A DNA stretch of 29,423 nt from Bacteroidales bacterium. Its GTDB lineage: Bacteria; Bacteroidota; Bacteroidia; Bacteroidales; UBA932. The notes under the pieces were generated by a model. It worked only from the letters and a program-made list of their open reading frames with translations, made no database searches and was not told where the DNA came from. The position numbers and the translations under genes are program-made. The stretch covers positions 1 through 29,423 of the forward strand of contig JAFXUS010000072.1 in the NCBI GenBank assembly GCA_017535125.1, given 5' to 3'. Of the stretch, positions 12,142 through 13,624 are shown in pieces. Positions within the stretch are counted from its first letter, which is position 1, and every line of letters starts with the position of its first letter.

Positions 12142-13624
12142 ATTTCAAAATGGGCTGCCGGGCGGCGGTCGTCTCGTCGGGACGGCCGATCGGCGTGTTG
12201 TGCGGAGCGCCGTGCAGCAGCTCCGGGTCGGTCTTGGCCTCGACGGCGATCTTGCGCATCACGGCGATGAATGCGTCCAGGGTCTCCAGCGACTCCGTCT
12301 CCGTCGGCTCGATCATGATGGCCTGGTGGAAGAGCAGCGGGAAATAGATGGTCGGCGCGTGGAAGCCGTAGTCCAGCAGGCGCTTGGCGACGTCGAGCGT
12401 CGAGACCCCGTTGTCCTCCAGAAGCCCGTCGAACACGAATTCATGCTTGCAGACCGTCGGAATCGGCAGCTTGTAGCAGCCCTTGAGCGATTCCTTGATA
12501 TAGTTCGCGCCCAGGGTGGCCAGCTTGCCGGCCAGCTTGATGTGCTCGCGTCCGAGCATCAGGATGTAGGCATATGCCCGCAGGATGATGCCGAAATTGC
12601 CGTGGAAGCCGCTGACGCGCGGAATATGCAGGAACGGGAGCACCTTGTCGGACACGCCGACGGGGCCTGCGCCGGGACCGCCTCCGCCGTGCGGCGTGGA
12701 GAAGGTCTTGTGCAGGTTCAGGTGCATGATGTCGAAGCCCATGTCACCCGGGCGGACCATGCCGAGGAGCGGGTTCATGTTGGCGCCGTCATAATAAAGC
12801 AGGCCGCCGCAGTCATGGACGAGTTGCGCGATTTCCTTGATGTCGCGTTCGAAGAGGCCCAGGGTATTGGGGTTCGTCAGCATGATACCGGCGATGTCCG
12901 GGCCGAGGAGCGCCTTGAGCGCGTCCACGTCCACGAGGCCGTTCTCCTTGGACTTGACGACCACGATGTCCAGGCCGCAGACGGCCGCCGAAGCGGGGTT
13001 GGTGCCATGGGCGCTGTCGGGGACGATGACCTTGGTGCGGGCGGTGTCGCCGCGGCTCATGTGGTACTCACGCATGAGCATGAGGCCGGTGAGTTCGCCG
13101 TGGGCGCCTGCGCAGGGCAGGAAGGTGAAATGTTTCATGCCCGTGATCGCGGCGAGGGCCTTGTCCATGCCGACGTAGATCTCCAGGGCGCCCTTGGTGG
13201 TGGATTCCGGCTGGAGCGGGTGCAGGCCCGTGAAGGCCGGCATGTTCGCAATCTCCTCGTTGATCTTGGGGTTGTATTTCATGGTGCAGGAGCCGAGCGG
13301 GTAGAAGCCCGTGTCGACGCCGAAGTTCATCTGGCTCAGATTGGTATAATGTCTGACGACATCCACCTCACTGACCTCAGGTAAATCTAATTCGGCTTCC
13401 CGCCAAATCGGTTGACTGTTCCGTGCGTGGGCGCCGGTTCGCGTAAGCGAATATCCGGCCATCCCCCTTGAGGGGGTGCAGGGGGTGAAAGCCTCTTCGC
13501 CTGCGAAGCGGGCGAGGGTGGCACGGTTTCCGAAGGGCAGCTGCTGCTGAGCAGCGTTTGGAAGGGAATAGCCGATACGTCCAGGTTTGGAGAGTTCAAA
13601 TATGAGTTTGTCGTAGTACTTCAT
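12134..13624 (-). CDS. gcvPB: Glycine dehydrogenase (decarboxylating) subunit 2, with in-frame insertion
   Basis: A 496-residue PLP-dependent P-protein subunit; with GcvPA it decarboxylates glycine and loads aminomethyl onto GcvH lipoate. Conserved parts are YPLGSCTMKYNPK (108-120), LPCAGAHGELTG (169-180), DSAHGTNPASA (203-213), and the PLP lysine K306 in LNLHKTFSTPHGGGGPG. I start at ATG 13624 (MKYYDKLIFELSKPGR), the normal family start; a longer open frame upstream lies inside gcvPA. Residues about 23-73, between GYSLP and REAELDLPEVSE, are unlike the family linker. They are encoded by a hairpin-rich stretch (about 13405-13558) that looks inserted. Frame is maintained and catalytic regions are intact, so the subunit is probably functional. 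The gene starts 14 bp after gcvPA ends. Confidence 0.95.
   Translation of the reverse strand: MKYYDKLIFELSKPGRIGYSLPNAAQQQLPFGNRATLARFAGEEAFTPCTPSRGMAGYSLTRTGAHARNSQPIWREAELDLPEVSEVDVVRHYTNLSQMNFGVDTGFYPLGSCTMKYNPKINEEIANMPAFTGLHPLQPESTTKGALEIYVGMDKALAAITGMKHFTFLPCAGAHGELTGLMLMREYHMSRGDTARTKVIVPDSAHGTNPASAAVCGLDIVVVKSKENGLVDVDALKALLGPDIAGIMLTNPNTLGLFERDIKEIAQLVHDCGGLLYYDGANMNPLLGMVRPGDMGFDIMHLNLHKTFSTPHGGGGPGAGPVGVSDKVLPFLHIPRVSGFHGNFGIILRAYAYILMLGREHIKLAGKLATLGANYIKESLKGCYKLPIPTVCKHEFVFDGLLEDNGVSTLDVAKRLLDYGFHAPTIYFPLLFHQAIMIEPTETESLETLDAFIAVMRKIAVEAKTDPELLHGAPHNTPIGRPDETTAARQPILKYD
13405..13558 (-). repeat. Hairpin-rich element inserted in gcvPB
   Basis: About 150 bp with four short perfect hairpins: TTCGC-GTAA-GCGAA (13438-13451), CCCCC-TTGA-GGGGG (13463-13476), CTTCGC-CT-GCGAAG (13495-13508) and GCTGCT-GCTG-AGCAGC (13540-13555). 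It is in frame with gcvPB and encodes roughly 51 low-complexity-like residues, including TPCTPSRGMAGYS. Boundaries are approximate because they rest on remembered family length. Confidence 0.6.

Follow-up and report, generated by a model that had tools for sequence, protein, structure and literature searches.

A hairpin-rich in-frame insertion in gcvPB of a Bacteroidales bacterium and the palindromic repeat families related to it

Introduction

Excerpts of PMC10969869, PMC2229807 and PMC3733652 present in-frame selfish palindromes chiefly as a trait of Rickettsia and Wolbachia, other bacteria having scattered REPs and MITEs within genes; excerpts of these sources also underlie what follows. 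The Rickettsia palindromic elements (RPEs) are dispersed palindromes of about 105-150 bp which lie in frame in conserved genes and are regarded as selfish and tolerated (PMC2229807, PMC10969869). Their in-frame fusion is described as unusually frequent, with 44 integrations reported in R. conorii and nearly half of the RPEs in ORFs (PMC10969869), and an RPE-bearing guanylate kinase was translated and active, with a changed substrate affinity (PMC2229807). The Wolbachia palindromic repeats (Ogata 2005), in another host lineage, are likened here by their title alone, which presents them as protein-coding. Bacterial MITEs such as ERIC and YPAL are small non-autonomous repeats with terminal inverted repeats and long stem-loops, primarily intergenic, which also give occasional in-frame fusions (PMC2229807). 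REPs of the GTAG and CGTC classes measure 20-40 bp and are mostly intergenic; many hosts of the intragenic ones are genes for DNA repair, DNA polymerase I, DNA ligase or pseudouridine synthases that act on tRNA. One such site is occupied in related species alike, and CGTC repeats are mentioned in Bacteroidetes (PMC3733652). No report of such elements in Bacteroidales was evident by title in a literature search that left subscription journals mostly outside.

The DNA analyzed here, called the window throughout, is a stretch of 29,423 nucleotides from a Bacteroidales bacterium (contig JAFXUS010000072.1, assembly GCA_017535125.1). Its gcvPB gene carries an insertion which is very probably a copy of a non-autonomous, hairpin-forming repeat, placed in the N-terminal linker and translated in frame; it would be one of several palindromic elements of rumen Bacteroidales (families A, M2, B and probably L1) which sit mostly within protein-coding genes, are mobile and add neutral peptide. 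This reading is built on dispersed copies, their in-frame place in many conserved genes in several frames and both orientations, a structure with covariation, the reoccupation of the same linkers, and the lack of a third-position excess of changes in three inserts. From such sequence comparisons we infer mobility, translation and neutrality.

A first-pass annotation of the window had likened the insertion to RPEs, and in behavior and description the likeness stands: copies are dispersed within one genome (seven of A and five of M2 in 1.13 Mb of the relative G002) and are placed in frame inside conserved genes. The families are probably others, however. They are found in Bacteroidales and are G+C-rich; A, M2 and B are predominantly intragenic, against nearly half of the first RPEs in ORFs (PMC10969869, excerpt); and M2 folds into four helices and occurs in various frames and both orientations. 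These elements appear RPE-like in working but differ in M2 frame use, habitat and structure. Their host genes resemble those of intragenic REPs, whereas A and M2, at about 65-120 bp and mostly intragenic, differ from REPs in length and habitat, and no GTAG or CGTC end tag was seen on A or M2 copies by inspection. A further family, C (TCATTCCGGG...CCCGGAATGA, with CGTC in front at least once), looks like a CGTC REP. M2 has terminal inverted repeats in the manner of MITEs, but neither a target duplication nor a parent transposase was found here, and MITEs are primarily intergenic (PMC2229807, excerpt).

The gcvPB gene and its linker

The host gene is the last of a gcvT-gcvH-gcvPA-gcvPB set (from gene calls, the other three being named by eye), and the closest solved chain to its product is 1wyt_B, the T. 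thermophilus P-protein (E 1.5e-133). The features of the locus are as follows.

12134 to 13624, minus strand: gcvPB, glycine dehydrogenase (decarboxylating) subunit 2, 496 aa, host of the insertion; open frame with Pfam GcvP2_C and Aminotran_5
13409 to 13525, minus strand: in-frame insertion of 117 bp or 39 codons (RATLARF...ARNSQP), residues 34-72; a gap against the GcvPB of L002 in the protein alignment
13526 to 13558, minus strand: residues 23-33 (NAAQQQLPFGN), which probably are native linker, with an uncertain edge; aligns with ETKTQLPKGN (L002) and ETEQQLPQGM (P0005)
13514 to 13531, minus strand: GGAAACCGTGCCACCCTC, like the 5' arm and first hairpin strand of M2, by eye against M2 copies
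13424 to 13489, minus strand: family A core module, two hairpins, CCCCCTCAAGGGGG and GCCGGATATTCGCTTACGCGAACCGGC; nhmmer E 3.5e-19 over model positions 1-66, alignment with 11 other copies, consensus fold
13495 to 13508, no strand assigned: perfect hairpin CTTCGCCTGCGAAG within the insert, from the hairpin search
13463 to 13476, no strand assigned: perfect hairpin CCCCCTTGAGGGGG, family A hairpin 1, from the hairpin search
13438 to 13451, no strand assigned: perfect hairpin TTCGCGTAAGCGAA, inner part of family A hairpin 2, from the hairpin search
13540 to 13555, no strand assigned: fourth perfect hairpin, outside the 117-bp insert, from the hairpin search

The frame on the minus strand is open from 13624 to 12134, confirming the initial remark that the stretch keeps frame without a stop. 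Between the motifs GYSLP and LPEVSE the protein has 58 residues, where about 56 had been counted and called over-long for the family. The family data agree: among the best 120 of 8000 matches plus the window protein (121 sequences, 120 of them parsed), the linker has 15-25 residues in 107 and at least 30 in 13, of which eight have at least 52. One more GcvPB with a linker of 52 residues (P0098) escaped the parsing pattern and is outside the 120. An AlphaFold model of GcvPB made with 56 close relatives had a mean pLDDT of 53, too low to serve for any claim.

Extent and composition of the insertion

Alignment with GcvPB of relatives, as the first-pass annotation had advised, sets the boundaries at residues 34-72, with L002 (RUG11407) as the empty site with a short linker (87% identical, 94% over aligned residues). 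The insertion lies between GYSLP...GN and IWRE...LPEVSE and is in frame, stop-free and about 117 bp long. It is thus real, as had been proposed, but of the range 13405 to 13558 first assigned to the element only 13409-13525 is inserted by this alignment. Its upstream limit can be placed only to within about 20 bp, since the codons for QQQLPFGN are similar both to the native linker seen in uninserted relatives (TQLPKGN, QQLPQGM) and to the M2 5' arm. Judging by these resemblances, the sequence suggests a composite insert that joins a 5' arm of M2 type to another hairpin and an A module.

All four perfect short hairpins described at the outset were recovered, and the same number occurs in 12 of 792 same-length segments of this sequence. 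The three within the 117-bp insert are equalled by 29 of 793 segments and by 21 of 1000 dinucleotide shuffles, so hairpin number by itself is only modestly unusual. RNA folding of the element, another of the suggested checks, gave z = -2.75 for the minus strand and -2.84 for the plus strand. Rfam returned for the window insert whalefall-1 alone (17.7 bits against a cut-off of 37) and nothing above a gathering score, while seven loci carrying copies gave no Rfam match up to E 1. Phage records gave no match to the insert region.

Two long intergenic palindromes elsewhere in the window (10375-10472 and 22975-23016, self-matches of 73-93% and 86%, respectively) are possibly terminators or other repeats. 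A tandem-like repeat of about 99 bp (2941-3234, 77% identical over 198 bp) is found in a small predicted gene at 2805-3278.

Dispersed copies and their host genes

No second copy of the insert was found within the window, but the insert region had 14 matches in three of five related genomes, contrary to the absence of other copies that had been named as a result speaking against a repeat. Eleven of the 14 lie in open frames through conserved genes, namely rsmG, pcrA, truA, murE, a spoIID-like gene, recG and polA in G002, and dnaX, an FAD oxidoreductase, an rlmB-like gene and an HPrK-like gene in G001. Host names are from NCBIfam for the proteins scanned, with rlmB below the curated cut-off, weak matches for the FAD enzyme, and the HPrK-like gene named by eye. 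The remaining matches are between genes (L093, L083) or in a short frame (L081). RecG is entered between the DEQH motif and MTATPIPRT.

An unbiased check covered 287 pairs of orthologs (reciprocal best matches, identity 45% or more), scored for insertions of at least 12 residues with matching flanks. This yielded 28 internal insertions. Their DNA had no other match in the 1.81 Mb examined in 15 cases, one or two in three, and at least three in ten. The window gcvPB is among these ten, its inserted DNA having 11 further matches, and it is the sole window gene with such an insert among those compared (18 pairs with G002, 11 with G001).

Residence within genes and reading frames

The 1.81 Mb consist of G002 (1.13 Mb), G067 (0.36 Mb), G001 (0.29 Mb) and the window. 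Genes were called iteratively (coding fraction 91-96%), repeats were located by nhmmer, and overlapping hits were merged into places, reducing family D from 22 to 11, E from 37 to 25 and L1 from four to two. The final caller is crude, scoring as intergenic the gcvPB L1 copy of L001 and the HPrK-like M2 copy of G001 (L091), both in open frames; counts were left as called.

Family A was inside genes at 11 of 12 places, M2 at 11 of 13, and B at three of five with one more at a gene end. L1 was so at one of two, the other being the L001 copy in gcvPB, which in fact lies in an open frame. For family C the figure was nine of 38, plus three at gene ends and two partial, and for F and Gf one of five and none of five, respectively. 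The palindrome families D (0/11) and E (0/25, one partial) were never inside genes, 0/36 together. By these counts the palindromes of the same genomes split into in-gene and between-gene families. The first-pass idea, that a palindromic repeat of intergenic type had entered a coding gene and was tolerated in a linker, is supported as to the move and the tolerance, but its family is of a mainly intragenic type. The number of open frames per copy, out of six (A 3.1, M2 3.9, D 3.0, E 3.4, the E hits being short), does not explain the split.

These counts bear on whether the inserts might be removed by RNA splicing or ribosome bypassing, giving a protein without the peptide. Ribosomes bypass hairpins in mitochondrial bypass elements and phage T4 gene 60, and the elements do have strong hairpins and lie within conserved genes, some near conserved motifs (recG). 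Neither process needs an open frame or a triplet length, yet A and M2 copies are inside one continuous called gene at nearly every place counted above, while the averages for open frames are such that about one insertion in five would keep frame by chance. With frame kept and stops absent, splicing or bypassing is rejected as highly improbable.

The intergenic palindromes of families D (CGGAACC...GGCGCCGAC) and E (TGTCCTCAAAA...TTTTGAGGATAAGTGGCGGAAAAAC) have ten and 25 places in the 1.13 Mb of G002 (C1-C4, C14-C17; L095-L143, L197-L216), one E place partly overlapping a gene. Family C has a copy of the REP-like ATTCCGGGTCAAGCCCGGAATGACT type between two genes of the window (5719-5746, minus strand), and metH of G002 (L127, 5767-9459) contains two separate in-frame copies of its short palindrome.

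Frame use differs between families. Genic A copies take one orientation and frame in nine of 11 cases and two others once each, the window copy being among the latter. The 11 genic M2 copies, read at a fixed anchor, fall into four orientation/frame classes of four, three, two and one, with one copy lacking the anchor; in a reading of 22 M2 loci by anchors, left unused, only seven had the anchor. A conserved peptide encoded in one preferred frame was thus absent from M2 and gave a mixed picture for A, whose preference could reflect some peptide constraint.

Coding constraint in shared inserts

The A frame preference, with peptides like RPDRDSDYPAIPLEGVQGVK, is also what one would expect if the linker were a functional, selected extension of GcvPB and other proteins, a domain spread by virtue of its peptide. 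TruB inserts of two close species, 97% identical in protein, point the same way, though as a pair they are too similar to judge coding constraint. We compared five inserts, small samples of 23-39 codons each, shared by the same gene of two species, none of them gcvPB. An excess of changes at third codon positions was absent from all three with enough differences, i.e. spoIID (identity 0.79, 1.00 and 0.79 at positions 1, 2 and 3, with position 2 fully kept), recG (0.70, 0.52, 0.78) and the FAD oxidoreductase (0.77, 0.82, 0.74), while their flanks displayed the usual drop at position 3, e.g. 0.90, 0.95, 0.68. A conserved linker with synonymous-biased changes, which had been put forward as evidence against a tolerated repeat, was therefore not seen in these three, albeit in host genes other than gcvPB. 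The dnaX insert, likewise too similar to judge, is 0.96 identical at each codon position (flanks 0.5-0.7) and 92% in protein (flanks about 50%), which fits a recent arrival or gene conversion.

Against a selected extension also stand the four orientation/frame classes among the ten anchored genic M2 copies, the uncommon frame of the window A copy, and unrelated elements in the gcvPB linker of different species. We consider this alternative unlikely to a marked degree.

Structure and mosaic composition

M2 is about 110 nt long and folds into an outer stem of 14 pairs enclosing three hairpins. Nine full copies from three species were aligned for the fold, copies with nested inserts being left out. 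Among the 37 pairs, 18 have changes on both sides, and 92.3% of cells are paired, compared with 44-48% when the partner is slid by 1-3 columns; none of 500 shuffles reached any of the five measures. The family A core has two hairpins and no outer stem, with changes on both sides in five of 18 pairs (12 copies).

A conserved structure with covariation would also suit a role in the gcv operon mRNA, in stability or translation control, of the kind suggested for BIME and ERIC repeats, and the final gene in the gcvT-H-PA-PB set does have the insert at its 5' end. The close relative L002, however, has a gcvPB without insert, and copies occur in many unrelated genes. The M2 covariation, moreover, is among dispersed copies and may for that reason reflect the needs of movement, not of a host gene. 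There is accordingly little probability that the structure is kept for the operon.

By sequence the elements appear mosaic and nested: by eye, an A-like piece lies within an M2 copy of G002 (C15:49693-49853), and in G001 (C42) two M2 copies contain other hairpins.

Distribution across genomes

From the genus of G002, which is presumably Cryptobacteroides, 200 genomes were sampled, and an M2 covariance model matched 168 of these (E up to 1e-5). Many of the 168 reached all 18 candidates scored per genome, i.e. at least 18 matches, and the whole G002 genome had 13 matches among 18 candidates. In the order, at a different cut-off of E 1e-7, three of 149 genomes matched, G002 included. Family A proper is patchy, with three of 61 genomes of the genus. 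IMG/VR searched with the exact M2 core pattern and plasmid records searched with one M2 copy gave no match.

Out of 30 M2 loci, 16 passed a strict test, for which the frame had to be open and to score as coding to either side, and 14 failed. Six of the latter are in genes by eye (dnaX L222, mtaB L230, ligA L233, L238, truA L239 and the msbA-like L241), and eight are not. Among the hosts that NCBIfam scans of 20 proteins named are polA, rlmB (twice), dnaX, atpG, ligA, truA, truB, recR, hemW, pmbA, an rsmB/F-type gene, yggS and mtaB, in several cases with a score below the curated cut-off; the L227 and L228 proteins had no match at the limits used.

An assembly or binning artefact might be suspected, as the close relatives used are metagenome assemblies. 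The GcvPB clusters bearing inserts, however, hold many sequences (135 in P0002, 69 in P0091, 62 in P0083), the same pattern is seen in records of different projects, and the M2 model matches most of the sampled genus genomes, leaving an artefact with a negligible probability.

Repeated occupation of the same linkers

In a tree of 129 GcvPB rows, 17 have a linker of at least 30 residues; nine changes are needed, at least six of them forced by starred branches, in a quick method with many open forks. The elements in this linker differ: L001 holds L1 and L003 the same L1 reversed (blastn), and by eye from the peptides there are A-type inserts in the window and P0002, L1 in P0003, P0091 and P0011, a reversed M2 in P0083 and a C-type peptide in P0087.

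Similar sites in other genes were compared by eye, ortholog pairs excepted. Different elements or orientations occupy one place in rlmB (G001 and G017 vs G116), and B in G002 corresponds to M2 at one place each in atpG (G197) and at the ligA C-terminus (G186). Linker regions struck repeatedly, though not certainly at the same base, are those of dnaX (G001, G002 and G074), mtaB (with A in G067 and with M2 in G009) and ispG (with C in G002 and a different insert in G067). The recG inserts of G002 and G036, the same element at the same place by sequence, may be shared by descent. Two candidates were dropped: the polA inserts of G002 and G183, which are the same element with the same place and 5' frame and may be one shared insert instead of independent ones, and truA as a gene struck twice at one site, since the G002 and G123 sites differ.

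Proposed course of insertion and its significance

An element of this kind would be copied or moved as DNA or RNA, its hairpins presumably being recognized by some mobilizing enzyme. Many landing places would be used, and genic copies would survive selection only if their length is a multiple of three, their frame stop-free and the site a linker or loop. The protein would gain some 20-60 extra residues, tolerated and with a sequence that is not selected. Genes might then serve as refuges, the need for frame restraining deletion, which may explain the scarcity of intergenic A and M2 copies.

On balance we lean toward a wider view, in which a genus of gut Bacteroidales has been colonized by structured mobile palindromes (M2, A, B, L1) living mainly in protein-coding genes, exchanging modules, nesting, and entering time and again a common set of tolerant linkers in enzymes of DNA replication, RNA modification and core metabolism. 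In each cell perhaps some two dozen proteins would contain neutral, frame-unconstrained peptide, with genes as possible refuges. One structured family is present in most sampled genomes of one gut genus, chiefly in genes where examined closely. This amounts to a natural large-scale insertion scan of housekeeping proteins, marking linkers that accept 20-60 foreign residues, and bears on how new peptide segments arise. The enzymes of relatives probably carry stretches of "junk" peptide, to go by their sequences. A warning follows for this group: peptide of mobile elements is present in its alignments, its predicted structures and the annotation of its metagenomes. The testable question raised is what moves these elements, and why in coding sequence.

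No target-site duplication was readable in filled/empty comparisons, where flanks have diverged. Pairwise nucleotide gap lengths were a multiple of three in five of 13 pairs, the window pair giving 119; as the frame is open on both sides, non-triplet gaps are taken as gap misplacement in diverged flanks. Y1 (RAYT-like) transposases had matches in nine of nine genomes at E 1e-3, above the curated cut-off in seven; the weak two were G001 and G002, the genomes in which these elements were studied most closely. Among ten Y1-match loci in the nine genomes no transposase was tied to A or M2: the flanks were without M2, one had an A piece, and the rest were at chance level.

Two such genes can be described individually. 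One, in G005 (L083, the same place as L116), is a Y1-transposase gene at 324-1325 (334 aa, PF01797), with a 26-bp family A hairpin piece at 1501-1526, about 0.2 kb downstream. The other, in G002 (L123), is a weakly Y1-transposase-like gene of 341 aa, below the family cut-off and with no Pfam match at 0.001. It is flanked by inverted GGGGAAGGTC...CCTTCCCC repeats (855-976 and 2321-2443), which are present elsewhere in G002, a REPtron-like arrangement.
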